From contig CALMZQ010000189.1 of NCBI GenBank assembly GCA_937870915.1, forward strand, positions 1-52,803: a stretch of 52,803 nt of DNA. Direction: 5' to 3'. A model generated the notes under the pieces. That model was given only the letters and a program-made list of their open reading frames with translations. It searched no databases and was not told where the DNA came from. Positions 2 through 52,803 of the stretch are shown one piece after another. The translations under genes were made by a program, and so were the position numbers. Within the stretch, counting starts at the first letter, position 1; every line of letters begins with the position of its first letter. Source of the stretch: an uncultured Ignavibacteria bacterium. Lineage in GTDB: Bacteria > Bacteroidota > Ignavibacteria > Kapaibacteriales > Kapaibacteriaceae.

Positions 2-87
2 GGTGCTAGATTGTTAGATTGTTAGAATGCTAGATTCCTTTACTAGCACTCTAGCACTCTAGCACTCTAGCACTCTAACACTCTAAC
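2..87. repeat. 8-bp tandem array in inverted arrangement, abutting deoC
   Basis: From 43 to 87 the unit CTAGCACT is repeated four times, followed by CTAACACT and a partial CTAAC that runs directly into the deoC start codon. From 2 to 33 there are four 8-bp units ending in GCTAG or GTTAG, which are imperfect reverse complements of the right-hand units, with a spacer at 34-42. The whole segment can therefore fold as a long imperfect hairpin. It could serve as a terminator for a gene left of the window or as a leader of deoC. No coding potential was seen. The left limit is set by the window edge. Confidence 0.85.
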
Positions 88-2415: not shown

Positions 2416-5400
2416 TCAGTGAATGAGCAATGGCATAGTACGTTCTACGGTGCCGATTAGGGCACGCAGGATGTACGAACCGGGCGCGAGATGGTGGACA
2501 TCGATTGTACACTCACGATCGATGGTGGTGGTGGCAGTGAGAATAGACTGCCCCATAACATTGTAGATCTCGATGGTTGTGATGTGCGAGCGACTGTCAT
2601 CGAGACGGAGGGTGAGAAATTCACTAGCAGGATGTGGTGTAACAGTAAGAGCGCCGATCCCATTGAATACAACGGAGCGGATGTTGCGAGTAGCGCATAC
2701 ATCGTCGATCGTAAGTGAGCCGTCGTCGTACTCCACAAGGCTTTCCTGACCTGTCCAGATAAAGCCGGGTGTGCGGCTAAAGAGGAGATCCGTGCGGGTA
2801 GACTGAGAGAGTAGTGTTGTGACGGGGATCAACGCAAGTGTATCAGAACCATCCCAGCGCCCAACGATGTTTGTAACTGCTTGGTCGTTTACGTATTGTA
2901 CATCCCACGAAGCTCGCGCATCTTGTCCTGAGGAAACGGCAAGATCTTTTGCGTTCCATGAAATGGAAATGCGAAACTCATCTAAGAGTATGCTGTCGAT
3001 CTGTGGACGCCGTACAAGCAGGACGGGAACCGTGTCCAGAACGCCAATGCCAGATGTGATATCTGGCATCGCAATTCCAGTGATTGCTGTTGCTTCGGCC
3101 TGTAACACCGTAGTAAGTGTGCCAAGACACGGAGCATCAACAGTTACGACCACACTATCCATATGTGTCCCATACTTCTGCAGTACCTCTACATCAACGA
3201 GGAGTTGTTGTCCGGGCATGAGTGTACACGGAACTGGAGGAACGATTGCTAGGATTGTAAAGGGGGCTTGCGGTGCTGCAACCGAACTAATATGTATGTC
3301 GGTTGTTCCTGTATTGCTATAGACGGACCTCATGGTCTGGCGCCGGCCGATGGTTCCTTCGGTAAAGGCAAGCATAGGTGTGCCGTCCGCCGAGACATTT
3401 ACAGCATTGCCACGAATACGAATGACCACACTGGTATCACATGGTTGGAGTCGAATCGTCAACACGATCTCATAAGGACCCACTTGAGTTGGCGTTACGT
3501 TGACGCGAATTGTTCTGCGCCCAACGAATTGTGTGCCCGGTGTAATATCTGTTGTTGCCGAACCGGTGACCGACACGCCTGATATTTCCCACGTTGTGGT
3601 GTCTGCAGACGTAAGCTCAACGTCAACTTCCGCTCGAGAATTCTGACAAAGGATCAACGTGTTCACATCGACAAATGGTGTTGCGGAAATCCGAGGAGAA
3701 CTGATCTTTCCTTCAATCTCTATCCATTGTGTGTCTATGCAAGCCCCATCCTGCAGTACAAATCCCAATCGTCCTACTGAGGTTGTTGATGATGGGATCC
3801 ACTGAATTGGGATCATGATGTCGATGTTTGGTCTGGTTGCGAATTGTTTCACGAAATTCAGCCGGACTGCACCTTGTTCAAGGATATCTGTTATCGCTAG
3901 CGGATCTGTGTTTGCCGATGCAAATCGAACAGAGATCGTTGTGTCCATAGGCACAAAAGAACATCCCGTCTGTTCCGGCATGTCGATCTGCTGAGGCGTC
4001 ATTGTGATGATCCGATCATTGCGCTCCACAACGATGAATGCTGTGATAGCGGTGTCGCATGGAGTTATCCCAACATCGATACGGACAGCAGTAACCGGAC
4101 TGTTTGTAGGGAGATTCACCGCAACAGGGATCCGATATCTTTCGCCCGGTTTGAGTACTACCATTCCCGGAAAGGTTATGGTAGCATTTGAGGACGGTGA
4201 GGTAATGGACCGAATGGTGGCGTCGGTATTGGAATTATTGAAGAGCCACAGAGCCGTGTCCATCATGGACGTACAGGACGGTGCCGTAAGGGTCACGTCA
4301 GGGAAGCCGAATTTCCATCCCGTTGATACCGACACAACAACGGTATCGAATTCTACGCATCCAAGATCATTACGAACGGAAACGATGTAGGACTCAGTTA
4401 CAGTAGCAACAATTGAGAGCACTGCTTGTGTGCTAAGTAATATCCCACCTTTTGTTCTCCACTCAAGTCGAGTTGGAGTTCCAGTTACCACGGCCGTAAA
4501 CGTCAATGGCGTACCAGGACACACAACGGTGTCGCGCGGTGCCTGCACATCCAGAGGAGGTACTGAACCGATGTTCTCCGGAACACTATACCCAAATGCA
4601 CTCTGACCATCATCTCCAGGAAGTGCCAAGTACGATTGATTTGCCTGACTTGTCTGGTTGACATTCCTGCCATTGGTCCCTGCCGTAAGTGAAAAGGCAA
4701 GTCCGGCTACTGGACTGGGTGCGGAAAAAATGAAGGTGCCAGCTCCTCCTCCTCCTCCAGGCCCATGCATGGCAGAAGTACGGACATTACCTCCAGCACC
4801 GCCATTCGCATCAACGAACACACCACCAACAATGGTTGCGGCAGCGAGGATGACTGTTCCGCCTGCTCCACCACCTCCGGCACCATCATTGGCTGCGTCT
4901 GTTGTTGGACGCAATCCATTAGCGGTTATGCGACGGGCATTTCCGGCAAGTGTAGCACATCTGATGATAATGATGCCGCCGCCATTGGCACCGGCCGTGC
5001 CAAGATTGTCGTTGATCTGTCCCGCGCCACCGCCACCGCCGCATCGTGCTCGCGGTGTTGCATTGATGATAACCTGAGAAGTGATGCCTCCCATTCCTCC
5101 GTTATCAAAGAAACGTGTGCAGCCTTCCCACTGCGCCCCACCACGTCCGCCAGCTCCTCCGTTACCACCGCCGCCGCCGCCGGAATTATGGGCCACGCCA
5201 CCGCCACCGCCACTATAAAGCTCTTGACGTCCGGATACATTTGTTGCGAGTGGATCAACAAACGACTCGCCCTTCATCGCTGCTGTCTGGCTGTTGATCA
5301 CATCATTCGCCGTTGTAACAGCACACGTTCCGATGCCTCGCCAGCGCGATCCTCCGCGAAAGCCAATACCATCAGCTACAATGTTGGCATTGAGTCGAAG

Positions 5401-38471: not shown

Positions 38472-38866
38472 GTGTAGCGATCATGGGAGCAGATGTACTT
38501 TCTGTTCCGACAGGTGTTCTCGGTACTGATGAATCCGATAACATTATCATCACCAACAAGGCCATTGCTGAGGTGAAGAAGATCAAGGCATCGAACAACA
38601 TTGCCGGTGACTTCGGTCTTCGTCTTGGAGTTAAGGGTGGGGGCTGCTCCGGTATGTCCTATACTCTTGGCTTTGATGCAGCATCGCGAGAAAACGATCT
38701 TGTTCTCGATGCCGAGGGCGTACGTGTGTTCATTGATTCCAAGAGCATGTTCTATCTCATGGGTATGACGTTGGACTTCAGTGATGGTCTCATGGGCAAG
38801 GGATTCACGTTTAACAACCCCAACGCAACAAAAACGTGCGGCTGCGGGTCATCATTTGCAGCGTAA
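38468..38866 (+). CDS. A-type Fe-S carrier (SufA/IscA/ErpA-like)
   Basis: The 132-residue HesB/IscA-family carrier receives clusters from the scaffold and delivers them to target proteins. It has the three family cysteines C60 (GGGCSGMSY), C124 and C126 (CGCGSSF). About 20 extra residues precede the usual N-terminus; an internal ATG at 38483 could be an alternative start. The ATG at 38468 overlaps the Rrf2 stop as ATGA. It is the last gene of the operon, and its stop codon is the first unit of the 8-bp array that follows. Confidence 0.94.
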   Translation: MSVAIMGADVLSVPTGVLGTDESDNIIITNKAIAEVKKIKASNNIAGDFGLRLGVKGGGCSGMSYTLGFDAASRENDLVLDAEGVRVFIDSKSMFYLMGMTLDFSDGLMGKGFTFNNPNATKTCGCGSSFAA

Positions 38867-38940
38867 CCCCGTAACCCCGTATCTCCGTATCTCCGTAACT
38901 CCGTAACCCCGTAACTCCGTAACTCTGTAACTCTGTAACT
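38863..38940. repeat. 8-bp tandem array (GTAACTCC)n after the SUF operon
   Basis: Nine complete 8-bp units and a partial one begin with the stop codon of the A-type carrier gene. In order: GTAACCCC twice, GTATCTCC twice, GTAACTCC, GTAACCCC, GTAACTCC, GTAACTCT twice, GTAACT. The array ends two bases before the sodB Shine-Dalgarno (AGGA). TAA recurs every eight bases, giving forward stops in all frames. It fills almost the entire space between the SUF operon and sodB. Confidence 0.9.
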
Positions 38941-39577: not shown

Positions 39578-40197
39578 CCCTTGGACTTTTTCCATTGAAC
39601 TTGGTGCTGTTCCCGCATGTACGGGTTCCGCTTCACATCTTCGAGCCTCGCTACAAGGAACTCATGAATGAGTGTCTTGAGCGAGGTTTGGAGTTTGGAA
39701 TCAATCTCGTCGAAGAAGGGCACATGCATCCGATAGGTTGCGCTGCCCGTGTAGTGGAGGTAACACAGAGCTACCCAGACGGTCGTATGGATGTGATCGT
39801 AGAAGGAACTCGGCGCTTCCGCCTGCTACAACTGAAGAATGACGACCGTCCGTTTGCTACCGGCGAGATCGAAGGTCTTGTTGACGAAGAAATCAATGTA
39901 GACCAGCTCCTAGTTGATGGCTGCCTAGAGAAATACAACCTGATCGTTACACTTGTTTATGGAGCTACGGCACCGCTGCTCTCGCGCATAGATCTTGGAT
40001 TCTGCCCATCCTTTGACATGGCACCAAAGGCAGGCCTAGCCACAGAACAAAAACAACGACTCATTGAACTCACTTCTGAAAATGCCAGACTCGAACTCCT
40101 TCATGAGCACTTCTCGGACTTGCTTCCAATGATTCGCAAGGCAGAAGCTATTCAACGTGTTGTGCAGAGTGATGGATATCTTCGCGCCATCACGTGA
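39574..40197 (+). CDS. LON substrate-binding-domain protein
   Basis: The 207-residue protein matches the N-terminal domain of Lon protease as a stand-alone protein: LFPLNLVLFPHVRVPLHIFEPRYKELM and GTRRFRLL. No ATPase or protease domain is present. Stand-alone LON-domain proteins are widespread; their role is unclear. The start is a GTG overlapping the SOD stop, and the stop overlaps the next GTG, so the three genes form a coupled unit. Confidence 0.9.
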   Translation: MTLGLFPLNLVLFPHVRVPLHIFEPRYKELMNECLERGLEFGINLVEEGHMHPIGCAARVVEVTQSYPDGRMDVIVEGTRRFRLLQLKNDDRPFATGEIEGLVDEEINVDQLLVDGCLEKYNLIVTLVYGATAPLLSRIDLGFCPSFDMAPKAGLATEQKQRLIELTSENARLELLHEHFSDLLPMIRKAEAIQRVVQSDGYLRAIT

Positions 40198-41429
40198 AAA
40201 GTCAACTAGACCAACGGACCACCTACAAGATCATCGATAGGATCTTGTCACTCAGCTACGAAAGCCAACTGGAACTACTCTCGGCTCTCGTGCGAGACAT
40301 CGTAGACAACGATCGTTTTGTTATGACAGGCGGACGCGTATGGGAGTTCGATGAAAAGGAGTCGGTCTTTGTTCTCCGCTATCAATACGGGGAGACAGAA
40401 CTCCTCACGGTTGGAACACGCCGCACCTTGGAGGTAGATTCTCCATTCACGTTGCTCACCAAACAACACACCTTTGTCACCGTTGATGAAGGGGCTTCAG
40501 ACAGCCCGTCTCGCCGAGAATACACCCTTACCGGAGTTGGCGATGTACTTCGGAGGCCCGATGGGACCGTATTCAAATATGCACTGGCATTTACCGCCCA
40601 TGCCATTGCAGAAGAATTCCGCGACACATTGGTTGTTGTTGGTGCTGCTGCTACCACCGCGCTCCGCAATATGCAGGCCGCCGTGCGCGAAAGTCGAATG
40701 CGCAAGGATCTCGATCAAGCATGGCAGATCCAGCGAGGTCTCGTCCCCGATCATGCTCGTCGGTTCTTGGAGTTCGATCTATATGGTGTCTCGCTACCTG
40801 AGAGCATTGTTGGTGGCGACTATTTTGACTACCTCACAACAAATGAGCAGGACAGACTGGGCGTCGTTATCAGCGATGCAGCAAGTAAGGGGCTTCCTGC
40901 CGCCGTTCAAGCACTGTTCGTGAGCGGTGCGATGCGCATGGGGGTGAGCTTCGAAACGAAGATGTCCTCACTCATTTCTCGACTGAATACGCTCATTTAC
41001 GACACCTTCCCCCACGAGCGATTTGTGTCGTTGTGCTACTGTGAGCTCACGCATTCCTCAAACGGATTGGTTCTTTACGCAAATGCCGGTCACTGTCCGC
41101 CTGTTCACTACCGTGCAGCCTCGGCCACCGTCGAATTCCTTCAACCAACAGGAGGGATCCTCGGAATTATTGCCGACCAACAATTCCGCGTGGAGAATAT
41201 CAATATGGCCCATGGAGACGTGTTGGTGATGTTCACAGATGGAATCACCGAGGCACAAGACCGTACAGGTACGTTATACGGTGAAGATCGCTTGATCGAC
41301 ATAATACGTCTCAATGCTACTGCAACGTCGGAAGTGATCGCACAGGCGATTCTCGATGATGTACAGGTCTACTCGGCTGGCGCACGGTATGCCGACGATA
41401 AAACGCTGATTGTCATCAAGCGCGATTAA
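40194..41429 (+). CDS. PP2C-type SpoIIE-family protein phosphatase
   Basis: The 411-residue protein has an N-terminal sensor-like region with GAF-like features (about 1-165) and a C-terminal SpoIIE/RsbU phosphatase domain. The domain has QIQRGLVPD, the metal-binding aspartates in GGDYFDY and ISDAASKGLPAA, FTDGITEAQ and ADDKTLIVI. Such phosphatases act on anti-sigma-antagonist proteins in partner-switching pathways. No kinase or antagonist is encoded nearby. The GTG start overlaps the LON gene stop as GTGA. The 3' end overlaps pth on the other strand by 14 bp. Confidence 0.92.
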   Translation: MKSQLDQRTTYKIIDRILSLSYESQLELLSALVRDIVDNDRFVMTGGRVWEFDEKESVFVLRYQYGETELLTVGTRRTLEVDSPFTLLTKQHTFVTVDEGASDSPSRREYTLTGVGDVLRRPDGTVFKYALAFTAHAIAEEFRDTLVVVGAAATTALRNMQAAVRESRMRKDLDQAWQIQRGLVPDHARRFLEFDLYGVSLPESIVGGDYFDYLTTNEQDRLGVVISDAASKGLPAAVQALFVSGAMRMGVSFETKMSSLISRLNTLIYDTFPHERFVSLCYCELTHSSNGLVLYANAGHCPPVHYRAASATVEFLQPTGGILGIIADQQFRVENINMAHGDVLVMFTDGITEAQDRTGTLYGEDRLIDIIRLNATATSEVIAQAILDDVQVYSAGARYADDKTLIVIKRD

Positions 41430-41988
41430 TGTTTTGCATGGCCAGCTCCGGACCGGCCTTCGCTATCTCTTCGATGGCCTTTACGCCCCTTTCAATCATC
41501 TGAGATAGCAGCTCTTGCTCTTCGGCAGAAAAAGGGGCTAGGACGTATTCAACCAATTCACCCGGCCCAAATGCCCGATCAATGCCACATCGGAGCCTCC
41601 AGAAGCTGGCAGAGCCAAGTTTATCGATCAGGGAAGAAATGCCGTTGTGCCCACCGGAACTCCCCCCAAGACGTAAATGAACTTTTCCGGTAGGGAAGTT
41701 GTATTCATCTGTTATGGCCATCACACGGCTAGGTTGAAGGCCATTAGCAATGGCCAACGGGGCAACAGCCTCTCCCGATAGGTTCATGTACGTAAGTGGT
41801 TTAACAACAAGGAGTTCCGAACCACCAACACGCATTCGGGCGGTCTCGTAGCGGTCTTTGTGAACCACCCAAACTCCTTTGTGGCGTTCAACGAAGGCGT
41901 CAACCACCATAAAGCCAATGTTGTGACGAGTTGAAGCGTACCGGGTTCCTGGGTTTCCCAATCCTACGATCAAAAAATGGGTCTGCAT
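41416..41988 (-). CDS. pth: Peptidyl-tRNA hydrolase
   Basis: Pth frees tRNA from prematurely released peptidyl-tRNA. The 190-residue protein has N12 (GLGNPG), the catalytic H22 (TRHNIGF), N69 (YMNLSG), D94 (ITDEYNFP) and GGHNG. The ATG at 41988 is chosen; a TTG two codons upstream is in frame. An inverted repeat lies 15 bp before the start. An AAGGGGCT site lies at 41532. Confidence 0.96.
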   Translation of the reverse strand: MQTHFLIVGLGNPGTRYASTRHNIGFMVVDAFVERHKGVWVVHKDRYETARMRVGGSELLVVKPLTYMNLSGEAVAPLAIANGLQPSRVMAITDEYNFPTGKVHLRLGGSSGGHNGISSLIDKLGSASFWRLRCGIDRAFGPGELVEYVLAPFSAEEQELLSQMIERGVKAIEEIAKAGPELAMQNINRA

Positions 41989-42003
41989 GTTCAATGTGGA
42001 AAA

Positions 42004-42209: not shown

Positions 42210-42268
42210 GCAGCTGGTTCGGAAAAGAGGAAGTATTTGATCGCCTTTGCCCACCAAAATTGGTGCCT

Positions 42269-45200
42269 ATGACCATCGCTACTCTCCTTCGGTTGAGTTT
42301 TGCGATGCTCAGTCTGTCCGCAGTCTTTCTGGCTAGCGGCATTGGGGCGCATGCTCAATCTACCGACAACGTTGGTATCGGAACAGCTACGCCTGACAAT
42401 TCTGCACTTCTTGAGCTGAACAGCACAACCAAGGGCCTTCTTGTCCCCCGGATGAACCAAACGGAACGCGACGCACTCGTTCAGCCGTCCACGGGTTTGC
42501 TGATCTATAACACAACAACAGGATCCTTTCAGTACAACTTTGGTTCAAAGGTTGTTCCGAATTGGGTTACAGTGCTGTGGTTCCAAGGAAGCGATAATGG
42601 ATCGGCTAATCAGCTGTTCTGGTCTCTTGCCGGAAACGACTCTGTCAAGGCCAATCATTTCATTGGTACGATCAACGACGCCTCCCTGGTTCTGAAGTCG
42701 AACAACGTTACGCGAATGGTGTTCACGCCAACGGGCGAGATCAATGTAACAGGCGCAACCAATGTTGTTGGTTCCCTGAATCTGGACAGTGCAAACACCC
42801 CGCTCTTCGTTGATGGTCAGGCAGGGGCTCGTGGGGGTGTCTTCATTTCATCTGGCCCAACGCTCACGCCTCGATGGACATCGGACCTGATGGTCTCAGA
42901 TACGGGGCTCATCCTCGATGCCGTAACCACTATCAATCGGCCGTTGACCGTTCGCGACTCGTCGCGTTTCCTCATTCTTCCAAAGCTCCCCCTCCAATAT
43001 GGTCACCTCCTCATAGGCGATGCCGATAACCTTGCTGCTCCTTTTGCGCCGGGCGTCAATGGTTCACTGCTGCAGATCGTGGCAGGTCAGCCACAATGGG
43101 TTGATCCGGATAAAACTGAATATTGGACACTTACGGGCAATTCGGGCGTTTCGCCGTCTGCCTATGTAGGTACTCGTGATGCAAATGATCTGAGGTTTGC
43201 TACGGACAATACGTTCCGAATGACGATCACTGCGGGGACGGGCGAGGTAACCATCAATTCACTTGCTGGCACCGGCACATCCGTGCCACCGAATGCCGGC
43301 GAGGGGCTCGTTATGGTTGACGCTGCAGGAAAGCTCTTCAAGCGTGAAAACCAATCACTTCTGCAACTCCCTCAATATCACATGTATTTGGGGGATGGTA
43401 ATAACGTTGCACAGCCATTCGCGCCGGGAGCCGATTCATCATTCCTTGTTACGATGGCAGGAATACCGTCGTGGGTAGACGGATCGCGATTGTTGCGAGA
43501 TCTGCCGTGGATTATTGGAGGTAATGTTGACGTAGGTGCCTTCCCGATCCTTGGAAACATGTCGCTCACCGGTGTCCGCGATCTCGACATTTATGCGGGC
43601 GGACAATCTATGTTGTTCCTCAATGGAACCACGCCACAGATAGATGCTCGAGTGCCACTCAATCTTTCGGGAACCACAACGCCCCTTCTTCTCAATGGCA
43701 ATGCTGGCACCGATGGTATGGTTCTGATTTCACGTGGTGCCGGTGCTACTCCCGAGTACGTCGATAGTCTAACTCTTCGTTCACTCAGCGTGAGCAATAC
43801 GCTCACGGTGAGTGGACGCAGTGAATTCATCGATACAGCCACGTTCCGCGTTTTCCCCAAGCTTGCACTCCAGTATGGTCACATCATCGTTGGTGATGCC
43901 AATAACTGGTCGGCACCTGTAGCTCCTGGATTGAATGGCTCATTGCTCCAGATCGTTGCAGGAACACCACAATGGGTAGACCCGGACAAAACCGAATATT
44001 GGGCACTCAGTGGTAACACTGCCGTTCCGGCCTCGGCATTTGTGGGCACACGTGATGCAAACGATCTCCGATTCGGAACGGACAATACGTTCCGCATGAC
44101 TATTGCAGGCTCAACGGGTGAGATCACCGTGAATAACCTTGCCGGAATTGGGACCACGTCGCCAATCTCCCAAGGTGAAGGTTTTGTGATCGCTGACAAT
44201 GGTGGCAGACTCATTAAGCGCGATATCGGATCACTCCTGCGTTTGCCGGAGAACAATCTCTTTGTTGGTGACTCCAACGATGTTGCGTCACCCTTTGCAC
44301 CGGGAGCAGACTCTACGTTCCTTGGCGTCTTCAATGGCAAGCCAACATGGTATAATCTAGCCGGCGTTCTGAACACAAAGGCTTGGCTGGTTGGTGGTAA
44401 TACAGCGCCCCCTAATGAGTTGATGGGTAATCTCACCGGTGGTGTAGATCTCATCGCAGGGGGAACAACACGTTTGTATCTGCAGAGTGGTTCTGAAGTA
44501 GTTGATGTTCGCTCATCACTAAACCTCGACGGAACGAATCGCGAAATGCGTCTCAATGGTAATCCGGGAACGGACGGATTTGTATTCGTGTCGTTTGGCC
44601 CAGGCAAGACGCCGTATTACACAGACTCGCTTGTCCTGCGCAAACTCCGCGTAACAGACTCGCTCATCATCGACGGCGATTTTGATATCCCTCTTACCTA
44701 TGCGCATATGTTCGTTGGCGATGTGAACAACAAGGCATCGGAACTAGCACCGGGGATCAATGGCTCGCTTCTGCAGATCGTTGCAGGAGCACCACAGTGG
44801 GTAGATCCGGACAAGACAGAATATTGGGCACTCAGTGGTAACACTGCCGTTCCGGCCTCGGCATTTGTGGGCACACGTGATGCAAACGATCTCCGATTCG
44901 GAACGGACAATACGTTCCGCATGACTATTGCAGGCTCAACGGGTGAGATCACCGTGAATAACCTTGCCGGAATTGGGACCACGTCGCCAATCTCCCAAGG
45001 TGAAGGTTTTGTGATCGCTGACAATGGTGGCAGACTCATTAAGCGCGATATCGGATCACTCCTGCGTTTGCCGGAGAACAATCTCTTTGTTGGTGACTCC
45101 AACGATGTTGCGTCACCCTTTGCACCGGGAGCAGACTCTACGTTCCTTGGCGTCTTCAATGGCAAGCCAACATGGTATAATCTAGCCGGCGTTCTGAACA

Positions 45201-48200
45201 CAAAGGCTTGGCTGGTTGGTGGTAATACAGCGCCCCCTAATGAGTTGATGGGTAATCTCACCGGTGGTGTAGATCTCATCGCAGGGGGAACAACACGTTT
45301 GTATCTGCAGAGTGGTTCTGAAGTAGTTGATGTTCGCTCATCACTAAACCTCGACGGAACGAATCGCGAAATGCGTCTCAATGGTAATCCGGGAACGGAC
45401 GGATTTGTATTCGTGTCGTTTGGCCCAGGCAAGACGCCGTATTACACAGACTCGCTTGTCCTGCGCAAACTCCGCGTAACAGACTCGCTCATCATCGACG
45501 GCGATTTTGATATCCCTCTTACCTATGCGCATATGTTCGTTGGCGATGTGAACAACAAGGCATCGGAACTAGCACCGGGGATCAATGGCTCGCTTCTGCA
45601 GATCGTTGCAGGAGCACCACAGTGGGTAGACCCCGACAAAACAGAGTATTGGACGCTCAGCGGTAACACCGCGGTCCCGGCATCTGCATATGTAGGTACA
45701 CGCGATCTCAATGATCTTCGCCTTGGAACGAACAACACCTTCCGCATGTCCATTGCCGGTACTACCGGCGAAGTCACAATCAATAATCTTTCCGGTATCG
45801 GCATCGTTGCGCCACCGGCACTCGGCGAAGGATTTGTAGTTGCGGATAATAGTGGTCGACTCATCAAGCGTGATCTTGGATCATTCCTTCAACTCCCGGA
45901 GAACTACCTCTACGTTGGTGATACAAATGACATTGCACGTCCCTTTGCACCAGGCGCAGACTCCACAGTCCTAGGCATCCTTGGCGGCGCACCAACATGG
46001 ATCGACATATCGGGCCTCTTGCGCGACAGATCATGGATCCAAGGTGGTAACACGAATGTAGTGTCTCCGATTCTCGGCAACATGCAGACCACGGGTATCA
46101 CCGATGTAGATATCCGCGCCGGCGGGCAAACGCGCTTGTTCCTTCAAGGCGGAGCAGAGGTTGTGGACGTTCGTTCGTCGCTCAATCTTGATGGCACAAA
46201 CCGCGAACTGCGTCTCAACGGTAATCCTGGAACAGATGGCTTCGTCCTTGTATCGTGGGGTCCTGGTCGCACGCCGTATTACACTGATTCCTTGGTGCTG
46301 CGCAAACTCCGCGTAACAGACTCTCTCAAGCTCCCATTGAACTATGCCAACATCTATGTTGGTGATGCATCGAACAATGCTGCGCAAGTTCCACCGGGTG
46401 TTGAAGGTTCTCTGCTGCAAGTAGTAGGGGGCGTCCCAACTTGGCTTGATGGTTCATTGTCTGGCTTCTGGTCGCTCAAGGGAAATACGAACATCGCCGC
46501 ATCGGCATTCTTGGGTACTACCGATGCAAATGATTTGCGCATCAACACGAACAACGCGTTGCGCATGACGATTTCGGCCACGGGTCAGGTAACAGTAAAC
46601 GACCTCTCTGGCGCAACAGTAACAGGCGCACTCACGCCGAACGAGGGATTCGTAAGCGCAGACGCTACGGGTCGCCTCGTTAAGCGTGACCTCTCATCGA
46701 TCCTAGCCCTGCCACAATACAACCTCTATGTTGGTGATGCAACGAACACTGCAGCACCATTCGCACCGGGAGCTGACTCTACGGTCCTAGGCATCCTTGG
46801 CGGCGCTCCAACATGGATCGACATTTCCGGACTCTTGCGCGACAGATCGTGGATCCAAGGTGGTAACACGAATGTTGTGTCTCCGATTCTTGGCAACATG
46901 CAGACCACGGGTATCACCGATGTAGATATCCGCGCCGGCGGGCAAACACGCTTGTTCCTCCAAGGCGGAGCAGAAGTTGTGGACGTTCGTTCATCGCTCA
47001 ATCTCGATGGCACAAACCGCGAACTACGCCTCAACGGTAATCCCGGAACAGATGGCTTCGTCCTTGTATCATGGGGTCCGGGTCGCACGCCGTATTACAC
47101 TGATTCCTTGGTGCTGCGCAAACTCCGCGTAACAGACTCTCTCAAGCTCCCATTGAACTATGCCAACATCTATGTTGGTGATGCATCGAACAATGCTGCG
47201 CAAGTTCCACCGGGTGTTGAAGGTTCTCTGCTGCAAGTAGTAGGGGGCGTCCCAACGTGGCTTGATGGTTCATTGTCTGGCTTCTGGTCGCTCAAAGGAA
47301 ATACGAACATCGCCGCATCGGCATTCTTGGGTACCACCGATGCAAATGATTTGCGCATCAACACGAATAACGCGTTGCGCATGACGATCTCGGCCACGGG
47401 TCAGGTAACAGTGAACGACCTCTCGGGTGCAACTGTAACAGGCGCACTCACGCCGAACGAGGGTTTCGTAAGCGCAGACGCTACGGGTCGCCTCGTTAAG
47501 CGTGACCTCTCGTCGATCCTGGCCCTGCCGCAATACAACCTCTATGTTGGTGATGCAACGAACACTGCAGCACCATTCGCACCGGGAGCTGACTCTACGG
47601 TCCTAGGCATCCTTGGCGGCGCTCCAACATGGATCGACATTTCCGGACTCTTGCGCGACAGATCGTGGATCCAAGGTGGTAACACGAATGTAGTGTCTCC
47701 GATTCTCGGCAACATGCAGACCACGGGTATCACCGATGTAGATATCCGCGCCGGCGGGCAAACGCGCTTGTTCCTTCAAGGCGGAGCAGAGGTTGTAGAC
47801 GTTCGTTCATCGCTCAATCTCGATGGCACAAACCGCGAACTGCGTCTCAACGGTAATCCCGGAACAGATGGCTTCGTCCTTGTATCATGGGGTCCGGGTC
47901 GCACGCCGTATTACACCGACTCCCTGGTGTTGCGCAAACTCACCGTTACAGACTCGCTTGACCTTCCGTTGAATTTCAACCACATGTATGTGGGTGACGT
48001 CACGAATAAGGCGGCCCAACTTCCGCCGGGCGCGGATTCAACACTCTTGCTGATCGTTGGCGGCGCGCCAACATGGACAGACTATTCCAGCCTTCTCGAA
48101 GGTTCGGCGTGGGTGCAGGGTGGTAATACCACCATCACAAGTAACATCATCGGCAACATGCGAGCCACGGGCGACCGTGATCTCGACATCCGTGCCGGTG

Positions 48201-49039
48201 GTTCATCAATGATATTCCTCGATGCGGCAGCTAGCCGCATCAATGCTCGCGATGCGTTCAATCTTGACGGTACAGATGTACCGCTTCTGCTCAACGGTTC
48301 CGCCGGCACGGATGGCTTTGTCTTAGTGACAAGGGGCCCGGGCCTTACGCCATACTACACGGACTCTCTCGTTCTCCGTAAGCTTACGGTGACGGATTCG
48401 CTCGCGCTCCCGCTCAACTATGCGCATATCTATGTTGGTGACATCACCAATAATGCCGCTCAGCTTCCGCCAGGTATCAACGGTTCACTTCTGCAGATCT
48501 CTGCCGGTGAACCAAAATGGGTACAACCACAGGACGCCGCCTTCTGGTCCCTAACGGGAAATACAGGAGTAGGACCAACGGCCTTTGTTGGTACCCTCGA
48601 CGCAAACGACCTGAGACTCGCTACGAATGGCACACCACGTGTCACCGTAGCACAAGGCACGGGGAATGTCACCATGACGTCTCTCGCCGGTGTACCGAGC
48701 TCAACACCGGTAGGGGGTAATGACGGCGTTGTGGTGGCCGACGCGTCCGGCACACTCGAGAAGAAAGATCGTTCGATCATTCTCGGTCTGCTGGGGATCT
48801 ATGGAGGACGCTATACAAATGCAGGTGCTGCTCCCGAATTCAACGTGATCATCACGTTGCCTGTTGGTGCAACTCTTGATGCCCAAGCGTCGATCACTCT
48901 AACGCCCGAAGCCTCGACAAGTGTCTCTGCAACACCATTCATTGTGAGTGGTTCCCGAACAGCCAATACGTTCACGATCAATTTCCCCGGTGGACTTAAC
49001 CCGGGTGAAACGATCAATTGGCTGGTGAAGAACCCATGA
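42269..49039 (+). CDS. Giant secreted repeat protein, 2256 residues
   Basis: After a signal peptide (about 1-29, ending GIGAHAQ) comes the segment DNVGIGTATPDNSALLEL, common in Bacteroidota tail-fibre-like or surface proteins. The body consists of about eight repeats of roughly 272-290 residues, the last incomplete. Each opens with a YAHMFVGDVNNKA-like segment, continues through PGINGSLLQIVAG, YWALSGNTAVPASAF, VGTRDANDLRFG and FAPGADSTFLG, and ends with NGNPGTDGFV, TPYYTDSLVLRKL and VTDSL. It ends NPGETINWLVKNP; no T9SS sorting domain was seen. The ATG at 42269 starts the signal peptide; no Shine-Dalgarno is visible. Repeats 3 and 4 are identical at DNA level. Function unknown; an extracellular fibre is inferred. 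Confidence 0.85.
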   Translation: MTIATLLRLSFAMLSLSAVFLASGIGAHAQSTDNVGIGTATPDNSALLELNSTTKGLLVPRMNQTERDALVQPSTGLLIYNTTTGSFQYNFGSKVVPNWVTVLWFQGSDNGSANQLFWSLAGNDSVKANHFIGTINDASLVLKSNNVTRMVFTPTGEINVTGATNVVGSLNLDSANTPLFVDGQAGARGGVFISSGPTLTPRWTSDLMVSDTGLILDAVTTINRPLTVRDSSRFLILPKLPLQYGHLLIGDADNLAAPFAPGVNGSLLQIVAGQPQWVDPDKTEYWTLTGNSGVSPSAYVGTRDANDLRFATDNTFRMTITAGTGEVTINSLAGTGTSVPPNAGEGLVMVDAAGKLFKRENQSLLQLPQYHMYLGDGNNVAQPFAPGADSSFLVTMAGIPSWVDGSRLLRDLPWIIGGNVDVGAFPILGNMSLTGVRDLDIYAGGQSMLFLNGTTPQIDARVPLNLSGTTTPLLLNGNAGTDGMVLISRGAGATPEYVDSLTLRSLSVSNTLTVSGRSEFIDTATFRVFPKLALQYGHIIVGDANNWSAPVAPGLNGSLLQIVAGTPQWVDPDKTEYWALSGNTAVPASAFVGTRDANDLRFGTDNTFRMTIAGSTGEITVNNLAGIGTTSPISQGEGFVIADNGGRLIKRDIGSLLRLPENNLFVGDSNDVASPFAPGADSTFLGVFNGKPTWYNLAGVLNTKAWLVGGNTAPPNELMGNLTGGVDLIAGGTTRLYLQSGSEVVDVRSSLNLDGTNREMRLNGNPGTDGFVFVSFGPGKTPYYTDSLVLRKLRVTDSLIIDGDFDIPLTYAHMFVGDVNNKASELAPGINGSLLQIVAGAPQWVDPDKTEYWALSGNTAVPASAFVGTRDANDLRFGTDNTFRMTIAGSTGEITVNNLAGIGTTSPISQGEGFVIADNGGRLIKRDIGSLLRLPENNLFVGDSNDVASPFAPGADSTFLGVFNGKPTWYNLAGVLNTKAWLVGGNTAPPNELMGNLTGGVDLIAGGTTRLYLQSGSEVVDVRSSLNLDGTNREMRLNGNPGTDGFVFVSFGPGKTPYYTDSLVLRKLRVTDSLIIDGDFDIPLTYAHMFVGDVNNKASELAPGINGSLLQIVAGAPQWVDPDKTEYWTLSGNTAVPASAYVGTRDLNDLRLGTNNTFRMSIAGTTGEVTINNLSGIGIVAPPALGEGFVVADNSGRLIKRDLGSFLQLPENYLYVGDTNDIARPFAPGADSTVLGILGGAPTWIDISGLLRDRSWIQGGNTNVVSPILGNMQTTGITDVDIRAGGQTRLFLQGGAEVVDVRSSLNLDGTNRELRLNGNPGTDGFVLVSWGPGRTPYYTDSLVLRKLRVTDSLKLPLNYANIYVGDASNNAAQVPPGVEGSLLQVVGGVPTWLDGSLSGFWSLKGNTNIAASAFLGTTDANDLRINTNNALRMTISATGQVTVNDLSGATVTGALTPNEGFVSADATGRLVKRDLSSILALPQYNLYVGDATNTAAPFAPGADSTVLGILGGAPTWIDISGLLRDRSWIQGGNTNVVSPILGNMQTTGITDVDIRAGGQTRLFLQGGAEVVDVRSSLNLDGTNRELRLNGNPGTDGFVLVSWGPGRTPYYTDSLVLRKLRVTDSLKLPLNYANIYVGDASNNAAQVPPGVEGSLLQVVGGVPTWLDGSLSGFWSLKGNTNIAASAFLGTTDANDLRINTNNALRMTISATGQVTVNDLSGATVTGALTPNEGFVSADATGRLVKRDLSSILALPQYNLYVGDATNTAAPFAPGADSTVLGILGGAPTWIDISGLLRDRSWIQGGNTNVVSPILGNMQTTGITDVDIRAGGQTRLFLQGGAEVVDVRSSLNLDGTNRELRLNGNPGTDGFVLVSWGPGRTPYYTDSLVLRKLTVTDSLDLPLNFNHMYVGDVTNKAAQLPPGADSTLLLIVGGAPTWTDYSSLLEGSAWVQGGNTTITSNIIGNMRATGDRDLDIRAGGSSMIFLDAAASRINARDAFNLDGTDVPLLLNGSAGTDGFVLVTRGPGLTPYYTDSLVLRKLTVTDSLALPLNYAHIYVGDITNNAAQLPPGINGSLLQISAGEPKWVQPQDAAFWSLTGNTGVGPTAFVGTLDANDLRLATNGTPRVTVAQGTGNVTMTSLAGVPSSTPVGGNDGVVVADASGTLEKKDRSIILGLLGIYGGRYTNAGAAPEFNVIITLPVGATLDAQASITLTPEASTSVSATPFIVSGSRTANTFTINFPGGLNPGETINWLVKNP
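43994..45630 (+). repeat. Perfect 812-bp tandem duplication, period 825 bp
   Basis: Bases 43994-44805 appear identical to 44819-45630 on visual comparison, at a period of 825 bp (275 codons). Identity breaks at the edges, where the codons for WVDPDKTEYW differ between units. The lack of even silent changes means the duplication is recent or is kept identical by gene conversion. Confidence 0.88.
45940..47940 (+). repeat. Near-identical 816-bp repeats, about two and a half copies
   Basis: A second repeat type with a period of 816 bp (272 codons) is seen, for example, at 46325 and 47141 (CTCAAGCTCCC) and at 46770 and 47586. Differences between copies are few and mostly silent (for example ACTTGG against ACGTGG). 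It is an older or less homogenised expansion than the 825-bp pair. Confidence 0.85.
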
Positions 49040-49131
49040 TGAGCGTAGAGAGCAGTCTTCCCATCGAATGTCCAATTGACATGTCCAAAATGTATCACAT
49101 CCCGTTTACTCACTTTTTCTGGAGTACTTCA

Positions 49132-50010
49132 ATGAAGTTCTCTTCCATTTTGAAGGGGCTCATCCTTACAGCAGCCCTCTTCATGTTTGTATCGGAAGCT
49201 GCCGCACAGCTACCGGTCCGCACACGCGAGCTCCGCTTGCTTGGTGCGACGTCTGGTATCATCACTCAGAATACATCCTCAGCTACTGCCTCGTATACAG
49301 TGACTTGGCCGGCAACGGCAAGCATTGTTGCGCCAGATCACAAGGCGTTCCTATTTGCTGCAGAGGGAAGCACAGCCACACAGCAAAACCTTGACTGGTT
49401 CGATGTTAACGGCGATCTCGTTGACAACGACAATGGTTCAGGTCTTGCAGGGCAAGTAACCTACTGGGCAGATGATAACTCGGTAACGGGTGAGGCGGAC
49501 TTCTTGTGGGACGAAACCACAAACACGCTTACCATGGGTAGTGCAACTGTTTCAGGTGTTGTTGAGCTGATCTCTGGTGCCTTTACGGGAACTATCCAGA
49601 CAGCCGCACTAACAGCGAATAACACGTACCGACTACCAGCTGTGCCTGCGGGCACGTACGAAGTTCCAGTTTCAACCAATCTTCCGTCAACAACGGATGA
49701 AGACCAAATCCTTCTTTCCAATGTGAATGGAACGGCTACCTGGTCAACCAACCCGTTTGCAGGTGTTGAGCGCGGAACAGCTGATCCAGCTGATGGCGCC
49801 TTTACACATACGCAAGCCACAGTTGGCGCAATTGATGCATTTGCAACATTTAATGACTTGATCATTGTGTCATCGATTGACGTGAATGCTTCACCAACAG
49901 GCAACATCCTGTCAGTTACAGCAGTTGCGGCAAACTCGTTCACAGTAAGCTCATCAGGTCCTTTCGGTGCAACAGAGCGCATCTCTTGGCTCTTCATCCC
50001 GATCCCTTGA
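49132..50010 (+). CDS. Secreted protein with N-terminal QLPVRTR motif
   Basis: The 292-residue product has a signal peptide (MKFSSILKGLILTAALFMFV, cleaved near EAAAQ) followed at once by LPVRTRELRLLGATSG. This segment is shared with the next gene (QLPVRTRSLQLIS). The rest is a threonine- and serine-rich beta-structured region ending ERISWLFIPIP, which recalls the end of the giant protein upstream. No known domain was recognised. The ATG at 49132 is chosen for the signal peptide and GGAG upstream, over an in-frame ATG at 49036. It lies 92 bp after the giant gene and is followed by two strong hairpins. Confidence 0.75.
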   Translation: MKFSSILKGLILTAALFMFVSEAAAQLPVRTRELRLLGATSGIITQNTSSATASYTVTWPATASIVAPDHKAFLFAAEGSTATQQNLDWFDVNGDLVDNDNGSGLAGQVTYWADDNSVTGEADFLWDETTNTLTMGSATVSGVVELISGAFTGTIQTAALTANNTYRLPAVPAGTYEVPVSTNLPSTTDEDQILLSNVNGTATWSTNPFAGVERGTADPADGAFTHTQATVGAIDAFATFNDLIIVSSIDVNASPTGNILSVTAVAANSFTVSSSGPFGATERISWLFIPIP

Positions 50011-50027: not shown

Positions 50028-50046
50028 CCGGGGGTGCGGCCCCCGG
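50028..50046 (+). terminator. GC-rich hairpin after the QLPVRTR gene
   Basis: CCGGGGG (50028-50034) and CCCCCGG (50040-50046) pair perfectly around the loop TGCGG. It begins 17 bp after the stop. It shares two bases with a larger hairpin that follows, so both cannot be fully formed at once. No T-run follows, so termination by the classical mechanism is uncertain. Confidence 0.5.
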
Positions 50047-50083
50047 ACGTCGGGGTGGTGCTGAGTGCACCACGCCGACGTCC
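50045..50083 (+). terminator. Large 39-nt hairpin before the next surface gene
   Basis: GGACGTCGG (50045-50053) pairs with CCGACGTCC (50075-50083). After one G-G mismatch, GTGGTGC (50055-50061) pairs with GCACCAC (50067-50073) around the five-base loop TGAGT. This gives 16 base pairs. It ends ten bases before the next ATG, so it could also mask the ribosome binding region of that gene or stabilise the upstream mRNA. Confidence 0.55.
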
Positions 50084-50093
50084 TAGAAACAAC

Positions 50094-52803
50094 ATGACGA
50101 AGCTGAAGAACCATAGAGCCCCTTACCAACACGCATTGATCTTGTGTGGAATACTACTGTGTGCATTTGCACTCGGTAGTATGAAAGCGCTTGCTCAATT
50201 GCCTGTGCGGACTCGTTCGTTGCAGCTTATTTCGAACAACAACACGAACCTCATAGAGCATCGTGCACCGGATGGAATCCTGTCGAACTTCACGTATACG
50301 TGGCCTTCGGCATATCCAACCAATCCAACAGACAACTTCCTTACAAGTACACCAACAGGTACACTTGCATGGGCCAACTATGATGGACTGTTCTGGAGAC
50401 TCGATGGAAATGCACCGGCAACAGCAGCGAGTTTCCTAGGACCAACATCTGCCGGCGTACCACTGAATCTCTCAACATCCAACGCTGTTCCGGGAAGTAT
50501 TGACTTCTATATCGGACCGGTTGCTCCTGCTAACAGACGGATCACTCTCGACAATACATCCTTCAATGTTGGGACGATTGCTGACCCTGTTGCAACGAAT
50601 CTCAACGGTACGCTTTCGGCTGAAGGCACAGCACTTATCAATACGGTTGGCACAGCAAATACCACAATTGGAAATGTTGGTGTAGGGGGCTCTACAGTAA
50701 CGCTCAATGCAGGAACAACCGGTAACATCATCCTTGGTGGTGTTGCTACGGATGCAACTCCAACGGAACTTCTCACGATCACGGCCGGCGGTCAAGTACG
50801 TCGTTCCACAATGTCGGGTACGGCGCAAGAAGGTCTTGTCTATACGAGCGGTGCATACCGTCTGGGTGGTTCTGCAAATACAGATAGTCCATTCTTAACC
50901 GACCGCTTTGTGAATGTTGATGGTTCTGATCTGACGTTCACAGCCAATGTTGGTGCGGAAACGCCGCTTACTATCGTTGGTGGCGTCAATAGTGGTGTTG
51001 TGCTTGCAGCCAGTGCCGGTGGTGACATTGTGATGACCGGTGTTGATGTGGATGTAGCATCTACCGACTTCCTTACTCTTGATGGATCGAATCGTGTCCG
51101 CCGCGCACCTGTTGCAGGTACGGCACAAGAAGGTATTACGTATTCAGCAAACGCCTACCGTTTGGGTGGTCCGCTTGTAACAGACAGTCCATTCCTCACA
51201 AATCGGTTCGTGAATATCGACGGCTCGAACCTGACGATCACATCGAATGGTGGTGCTAACACGCCATTCGTTGTAACAGGGACGGCTAACAGTGGCGTAG
51301 CACTCAATGCTGATGGCCTTGGCACACTCGAGCTCACGGGCTCTACAAACATCAATGTCTCGGGTACTGCTAACACAACGATCGGTAATACGGGCGTGGG
51401 TGCAACAACGGTCACCCTCAACGCAGGCACAACCGGGAACATCGTTCTTGGTGGAGTTGTTACCGATGCCACACCAACAGAGATCCTAACGATCACTGCC
51501 ACGAATGAAGTGCGCCGTTCAACACTTAGTGGTACAGCACAGGAAGGTATCGTCTTTACATCGGGCGCATACCGACTCGGTGGTTCAGCGAACACAGACA
51601 ACCCGTTCCTTACAAATCGTTTTGTGAACATCGACGCATCTAACCTCTCGTTCACATCTGATGGTGGAGCAAGTACAACTATGCTCCTCACTGGTGGTGT
51701 AAACAGCGGGGTTGCGATGACAACCGCTGGAACGGGCACGATCGCAATGTCCGGTCCAACTGACGTAACAGGCGTAACAACGATCAATACTACAGGCGCG
51801 GCCAACACAACCATCGGCAATACGGTTGGTGGCGGTGCAGTATCAGTCAACTCTAGTGGTGTCAATCCGATCACGATCGATGTTGGCGTTAACACCAACA
51901 ACCTCGTATTGAACAACATCGCAACAGATGCAACACCTACGGAGTTGCTGACGATCACGGCTGGTGGACAAGTACGCCGCTCAACTATGTCTGGCACAGC
52001 ACAAGAAGGTGTTGTCTACACAGCAGGAGCCTATCGTCTTGGCGGAGCCGCTGTTACAGACAACCCGTTCCTAACCGACCGTTATGTAAACGTTGACGGA
52101 TCGGACCTCACATTCACATCAAATGGTGGAGCGAATACTCCACTCGTTGTCACAGGTGGTTCTGCAAGTGGCGTGGTCTTATCCGCCTCTCCTACAGGCA
52201 ACATCATAATGAATGGTGTAGCTACCGATCTACTCCCAACAGACTGGGTCACGATCGATGCATCGAATCAGGTTCGCAGAACACCGATAGCCGCGTCTGC
52301 ATTGGAAGGTATCACCTATTCCGGCATATCATATCGACTTGGTGGCACGGCGGTCACCGACAATCCGTTCCTTGCCAACCGATTTGTCAATATCGATGCG
52401 TTCAATTTCACTGTCACGTCTGATGCGGGAGCCAATCAGCCCCTTGCAATTACAGGTGGCGCGAATAGTGGTGTAGCGTTATCGGCAAATGGTACCGGTG
52501 ACATTGTCTTGAACGGTGTGATCGTAGACCCGACGCCAACAGAGATCCTCACGATCACTGCTACCAACGAAGTCCGTAGATGGGTTATCGCGAACTCTGC
52601 GCTTGAAGGTGTGTATTATTCTGGTGGTGCCTATCGTCTTGGTGGTCCTGCCAACACAGACAATCCGTTCCTCACAAATCGTTTTGTGAATATCGACGCA
52701 TCGAATCTCTCGTTCACATCCGATGGTGGAGCCAGCACAACGATGCTTCTCACTGGCGGCGCGAACAGCGGCGTAGCGATGACAACGGCCGGTACGGGTA
52801 CGT
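50094..52803 (+). CDS. Repetitive secreted protein, cut by the window edge
   Basis: The frame is open from the ATG at 50094 to the right edge (903 codons, no stop). It starts with a signal peptide (about 1-35, LILCGILLCAFALG, ending KALAQ) followed by LPVRTRSLQLIS, the motif it shares with the preceding gene. At least six repeats follow, each with AQEGLVYTSGAYRLGG, TDSPFLTDRFVNVDGSDL and GGVNSGVVL-like segments, at spacings of about 300-460 bp (near 50.83, 51.13, 51.54, 52.00, 52.30 and 52.60 kb). A fibrous extracellular protein is inferred. The C-terminus, and whether it has a sorting domain, cannot be seen. No Shine-Dalgarno precedes the start; a large hairpin does. Confidence 0.8.
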   Translation, partial: MTKLKNHRAPYQHALILCGILLCAFALGSMKALAQLPVRTRSLQLISNNNTNLIEHRAPDGILSNFTYTWPSAYPTNPTDNFLTSTPTGTLAWANYDGLFWRLDGNAPATAASFLGPTSAGVPLNLSTSNAVPGSIDFYIGPVAPANRRITLDNTSFNVGTIADPVATNLNGTLSAEGTALINTVGTANTTIGNVGVGGSTVTLNAGTTGNIILGGVATDATPTELLTITAGGQVRRSTMSGTAQEGLVYTSGAYRLGGSANTDSPFLTDRFVNVDGSDLTFTANVGAETPLTIVGGVNSGVVLAASAGGDIVMTGVDVDVASTDFLTLDGSNRVRRAPVAGTAQEGITYSANAYRLGGPLVTDSPFLTNRFVNIDGSNLTITSNGGANTPFVVTGTANSGVALNADGLGTLELTGSTNINVSGTANTTIGNTGVGATTVTLNAGTTGNIVLGGVVTDATPTEILTITATNEVRRSTLSGTAQEGIVFTSGAYRLGGSANTDNPFLTNRFVNIDASNLSFTSDGGASTTMLLTGGVNSGVAMTTAGTGTIAMSGPTDVTGVTTINTTGAANTTIGNTVGGGAVSVNSSGVNPITIDVGVNTNNLVLNNIATDATPTELLTITAGGQVRRSTMSGTAQEGVVYTAGAYRLGGAAVTDNPFLTDRYVNVDGSDLTFTSNGGANTPLVVTGGSASGVVLSASPTGNIIMNGVATDLLPTDWVTIDASNQVRRTPIAASALEGITYSGISYRLGGTAVTDNPFLANRFVNIDAFNFTVTSDAGANQPLAITGGANSGVALSANGTGDIVLNGVIVDPTPTEILTITATNEVRRWVIANSALEGVYYSGGAYRLGGPANTDNPFLTNRFVNIDASNLSFTSDGGASTTMLLTGGANSGVAMTTAGTGT

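Follow-up and report, generated by a model that had tools for sequence, protein, structure and literature searches.

How did one gene come to hold two long stretches that agree at every base, and by what process does its product change? The question is raised by the draft genome (3.32 Mb, 97.3% complete) of an uncultured Ignavibacteria bacterium of the family Kapaibacteriaceae. The window studied here is one whole contig of that genome (CALMZQ010000189.1 of assembly GCA_937870915.1, G000:C189 in our set; 52,803 nucleotides). It carries a gene for a 2259-residue repeat protein, which we label fibA, the next two genes downstream being fibB and fibC. We propose that fibA encodes a repeat-built fibre- or adhesin-like protein and that exchange between its modules explains both an exact tract of 812 bp and the array lengths seen in related species, an explanation to which we give a probability of about 0.75. 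The product would be secreted, with two module types ranged between fixed N-terminal and C-terminal modules. Homologous exchange (gene conversion and unequal crossing-over) would overwrite the inner modules and add or remove whole in-frame units, while selection would preserve the protein sequence of the modules. The 812-bp tract would be the youngest exchange, most likely a conversion between two pre-existing units; the 272-codon copies further on would represent an older one and would have gathered silent changes since.

The exact repeat is shorter than its period

The longest exact internal repeat of fibA spans 812 bp (43994-44805 = 44819-45630) at a lag of 825 bp, or 275 codons; by a rough formula, about 13 bp would be the longest expected in a random sequence of the same length. 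The original prediction, which was made from the sequence alone, had announced a perfect 812-bp internal duplication, and the two stretches do agree at all 812 bases. The nearest differences lie at 43993 leftwards and at 44806 rightwards. At the protein level the pair is identical over 287 residues, and its eight silent codon differences all fall near the two ends. By itself, such a repeat is ordinary for genes of this kind.

More telling is the edge of the repeat. The exact tract falls 13 bp below the 825-bp period, and this 13-bp seam holds three differences. A tandem duplication that is still fresh cannot leave an exact tract shorter than its period, and a homogenising exchange between existing units therefore fits better. 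A clean recent duplication of one 825-bp unit, in which no conversion took place and the seam differences are later mutations, is quite unlikely: the unit is indeed tandem, in frame and exact over almost its full length, but all three differences would have had to arise within the 13 bp at one end while the other 812 stayed untouched, which has a chance of about 8e-6 if change is independent and uniform. It is possible that the unit was duplicated and that one edge was exchanged afterwards. Under the exchange that we favour, both the direction of the event and its date are inferred.

The seam exists in three versions, to the left of unit 1 (L), at the end of unit 1 (M) and at the end of unit 2 (R), and all three sequences differ. 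This bears on a further explanation, in which the assembler, for example by merging near-identical paths or through a mixture of strains, created the unit count or the exact match between the units. The draft comprises 233 contigs, an 812-bp exact repeat exceeds the usual short read, and the contig stops within the repeat gene fibC; yet a single real copy has only two edges and could hardly yield three seams. We therefore regard an artefact as unlikely, and two or more 825-bp units are likely to be really present. The warning of assembly error in the original prediction keeps part of its force, because the assembler could have merged further copies or masked differences between the units: the identity of the units may be overstated and their count understated. 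Equal-length overlaps at contig ends, sought as a trace of the assembly method, were not found.

Silent sites record exchange between copies

The second repeat of fibA has a lag of 816 bp (272 codons). Copies A and B differ at 37 synonymous codons and show no replacement, so that the prediction of a 272-codon pair with silent changes only was borne out; the silent divergence (dS) of the pair is 0.18. A run of 395 residues, selected for protein identity, contains 49 silent differences and no replacement, whereas a segment of 435 codons selected by DNA similarity includes about 19.5 replacements. Across the three 816-bp copies (A, B and the partial copy C) silent sites are shared in blocks, 29 sites falling in 7 runs (p ~2e-5 by shuffling), and this mosaic shows exchange between the copies. 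All unit lengths are multiples of three; together with the mosaic, this upholds the claim of recombination in in-frame steps.

The contrast between silent and replacement changes is sharpest in the orthologue of UBA2333, a genome of the same family (G013, match L029) and likewise a draft, of about 100 contigs. Its nine modules of 133 residues show one replacement in all against at least 90 silent changes, with 21-44 codon differences per pair, a mean dS of 0.42 and a replacement divergence (dN) of 0.0026; the counts over the nine modules (1 versus at least 90) give a dN/dS of about 0.004. Two random recodings of such a module would share about 77-79% identity; the modules themselves share 89-95%, which means that their silent sites are not saturated. 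Incompatibility between silent sites grows with distance (p 0.008), while the decay of r2 reaches only p 0.054.

We then surveyed 234 open frames from 33 loci. Internal repeats were present in 20, of which 19 gave a usable dN/dS and one had no differences. Values ranged from 0.0064 to 0.26: UBA2333 was lowest (0.0064), the window fibC followed at 0.021 on only 54 codons, and the others lay between 0.045 and 0.26. A non-saturated pair of species, G004 and G007, gave a between-species reference of 0.057 for fibA (3 replacement, 18 silent), 0.032 for SOD and 0.11 for fibB. Fisher tests of this pair against UBA2333 (1, 90) gave p values of 0.020 for fibA, 0.004 for SOD and 6e-9 for fibB, and fibA of the pair against the window core (0, 49) gave 0.024, all of them unadjusted and based on lower-bound counts. 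In the same two species, fibA (L039:6150-6992, L040:8533-9375) has a dS of 0.085 against 0.21-0.69 in six neighbouring genes, and a recent exchange of fibA between them is possible.

End modules are fixed, inner modules of the longest arrays resemble their own gene

The fibA modules are of two alternating types (about 125 and 147 residues). By counts of the W..GN motif, the whole protein comprises 15 modules, arranged AABABABABABABBA, the motif and the A/B split being our own definitions. We compared the module cores (85 residues after the motif) of 12 genes all against all, with G020, G003 and G014b set aside. First and last modules, taken from the nine genes with at least three modules, found their best match in another genome in 18 of 18 cases, and 17 paired with the same end; only in the split gene G014a did the last module do otherwise. 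Inner modules, by contrast, were closest to their own gene in 12 of 13 cases in the window, 15 of 15 in UBA2333 and 6 of 8 in G018; between genera, their best matches from the window to UBA2333 or G018 share about 41-60% of residues. The ends are thus fixed, and in the longest arrays the interiors undergo concerted evolution; its marks, likeness within the gene and traces of exchange between copies, were both found there. Taken with the silent-site mosaic, the self-likeness of the modules indicates that they overwrite one another, in an array whose length differs between species.

One conserved locus with arrays of many lengths

The family set comprised 23 genomes, the window's own included, with one genome per species. 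A locus composed of SOD, Lon-like, SpoIIE, pth, fibA and fibB, labelled by Pfam, is kept in 14 of them; the C-terminal query gave some match at E 0.001 in 18, with a clear fibA in the same number, 14, that keep the locus. SOD and the Lon-like gene stand upstream of fibA in 13 of the 14 loci, the remaining contig being too short, and the counts for the other neighbours are given with all coordinates in Table 1. An inner-stretch search at E 1e-10 found 15 of the 123 genomes of the order, with only one outside the family (G040, E 6e-11).

Complete fibA genes encode 280 (G004), 280 (G007), 287 (G015), 544 (G016), 656 (G017), 677 (G011), 865 (G012), 1319 (G019), 1570 (G018), 2259 (window) and 2610 (UBA2333) residues; for the last, the listed GTG start lies some way ahead of the likely signal peptide, and a figure of about 2,500 is probably closer to the truth. 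Two fibA genes of 667 and 669 residues lie side by side in G014, and that of G020, cut by the contig end, encodes at least 1286 residues. The suggestion that the gene alters its length by whole units is supported between species only, where orthologues at one locus cover a wide range of lengths and module counts. Its stronger form, a fast contingency locus in which units are often gained and lost in one population so as to vary the surface, we consider doubtful. Long perfect direct repeats and in-frame units would suit it, and Periscope Proteins alter their repeat number between close strains (PMC8201768); the silent divergence of the UBA2333 modules (mean dS 0.42), however, does not suggest frequent turnover there, and the window's 272-codon pair has itself reached a dS of 0.18.

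Table 1. Features of the fibA region, in coordinates of the window.
Feature	Position	Strand	Remark
SpoIIE-type phosphatase	40194..41429	+	Kept neighbour in 11/14 loci
Peptidyl-tRNA hydrolase (pth)	41416..41994	-	Kept neighbour in 13/14 loci
fibA, 2259-residue repeat protein	42260..49039	+	TTG start listed; in-frame ATG at 42269
Hydrophobic N-terminus, Sec signal peptide-like	42269..42358	+	Residues 4-33, ending AHAQ; hydropathy only
N-terminal region common to Bacteroidota 'tail fiber domain-containing protein' records	42359..42800	+	Best pieces residues 36-180
Seam version L, left of unit 1	43981..43993	+	
275-codon unit 1	43994..44818	+	First 812 bp = unit 2
Seam version M, end of unit 1	44806..44818	+	Unlike L and R
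275-codon unit 2	44819..45643	+	First 812 bp = unit 1
Seam version R, end of unit 2	45631..45643	+	
272-codon copy A	45941..46756	+	Residues 1228-1499
272-codon copy B	46757..47572	+	Residues 1500-1771; 37 synonymous codon differences from A, protein unchanged
Partial copy C	47573..47941	+	Residues 1772-1894; same protein sequence, A/B mosaic at silent sites
End module and C-terminal domain	48500..49036	+	Residues 2081-2259, kept in orthologues; alignment of last 205 residues
fibB	49018..50010	+	Homologue after fibA in 12/14 loci (other 2 contigs end first)
fibC, third repeat gene	50034..52802	+	Runs off contig end

In the relative from Lac Pavin, Candidatus Kapaibacterium (G003, same genus, match L030), fibA is interrupted after about 634 codons (L030:5042-5182). 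The idea that this contig simply broke at the fibA repeat was rejected, for the sequence past about position 5042 recurs across that genome. With itself counted, this sequence has 10 matches there, several of them at contig ends, and the interruption is for this reason probably a mobile element. A 26-residue open frame within it had no Pfam match; we presume that it resembles the start of an IS3-type transposase.

The neighbourhood offered some further observations. Of the same-genus genomes, seven have no clear fibA, and at E 1e-60 none of these seven gave a SpoIIE match; SpoIIE occurs in G021 without fibA, and in G014 and G019 fibA has no adjoining SpoIIE. The end of contig C137 (L108) bears a fibC-like C-terminal part which perhaps continues the window fibC, no overlap longer than 27 bases having been found between them. 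An octanucleotide array (CTAGCACT) occupies window positions 43-85, where a query of positions 1-500 gave 52 matches in the genome, itself counted, and further arrays of 7 and 8 bases lie at 2282-2369 and 38862-38940.

The fibA product

From its sequence, fibA is probably an uncharacterised, secreted, repeat-built protein. No model of Pfam or NCBIfam was reached at its cut-off, and no match to PDB sequences appeared in searches at E up to 1 and E up to 5. Narrow word searches of the literature met no description of the family. Hydropathy makes the N-terminus look like a signal peptide, and no anchor was found. The Por_Secre_tail sorting domain, typical of cargo of the type IX secretion system, was not found in fibA, the other sorting types having been covered by the Pfam and NCBIfam scans only; its cut-off was passed by two other window proteins.

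Could fibA be a phage tail fibre or another prophage gene? Pieces of its N-terminal region match proteins named 'tail fiber domain-containing', with 33-44% identity in two Hymenobacter matches, and this annotation stands on three of the four plasmid records that match the region; moreover, 49 residues match one phage protein. However, viral contigs scanned with the N-terminal region and with the C-terminal alignment yielded no confirmed relative, the best PHROG match, at E 0.0014, was to a family whose function is unknown, and the locus, which housekeeping genes flank, is kept across genera. Hymenobacter volaticus WP_245127076.1 carries Peptidase_S74, whereas fibA gave no match to that domain at E up to 1 and has a conserved C-terminal domain of its own. 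A phage origin is thus highly improbable.

Discussion

The bacterial system most like fibA in build is that of the Periscope Proteins, described as surface proteins with long near-identical repeat arrays of variable number (PMC8201768, PMC9704523). With them fibA shares highly identical repeats (the 812-bp exact pair, the 395-residue run) between distinct ends, a probable secretion, in-frame differences in repeat number, in its case between species or genera, and recombination as the proposed cause. As far as its sequence tells, fibA would work like a Periscope Protein; we do not claim membership. Its modules differ in that they match no Pfam family. Periscope Proteins are monomeric chains in which each repeat folds by itself and the array makes a rod, and the review leaves out multimeric stalks (PMC9704523). 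Whelan et al. (2021) argue that proteins are alike because identity is needed at the DNA level (PMC8201768), and UBA2333 does not fit this simply, since its protein identity is kept despite DNA divergence. The nearest evolutionary parallel, by analogy, is polyubiquitin, in which silent divergence under protein identity goes with exchange, as PMC10457151 describes it. Like polyubiquitin, fibA has tandem repeats that encode the same protein sequence but vary silently, silent sites shared in blocks and, in its longest arrays, repeats closer within the gene than between species; unlike ubiquitin, which is kept between species, its modules differ by about half between genera.

Several observations weigh against exchange between modules of a fibre- or adhesin-like protein. 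The mosaic could also stem from strain mixing in metagenome assembly. On a segment chosen by DNA similarity, the window fibA has a dN/dS of 0.093, ordinary and mid-range among the 19 rows of the survey, which weakens the strong argument from silent-only change and leaves only UBA2333 standing out. Inner modules were closest to their own gene in only one of five cases in G019 and in none of seven in five shorter genes; as these match other genomes best, self-likeness is confined to the longest arrays. Structure prediction failed, both for one 272-residue unit (predicted local distance difference test score, pLDDT, 33.0; nine rows: five window, three L029, one L030) and for the last 205 residues (pLDDT 34.1; two rows), so that the fibre shape is unsupported, and a role in adhesion is putative. 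Finally, every length comparison is between species with one genome each.

A more far-reaching idea, which we put forward only tentatively, is that the sameness of the modules is itself under selection: a replacement in a single module would be harmful as long as the others lack it, and the array would change jointly, by copying one module over the others. We raise it because the UBA2333 array is nearly free of replacements and yet about half of the residues have changed between genera. The contrast leans on this one relative, and short-read assemblies may lose DNA-identical arrays, so that silently diverged ones would be over-represented. If true, fibA-type fibres would stand as the bacterial equivalent of polyubiquitin, while changing fast from one species to another, and the argument that protein likeness is a mere by-product of DNA identity in Periscope Proteins would be reversed. 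All together, one chromosomal locus provides a natural series of the same gene, from 1 to 17 modules, in an environmental and hardly studied lineage. Such a series permits exchange to be dated by silent changes, selection for protein sameness to be separated from homogenisation of DNA, and array length to be tested as a trait.

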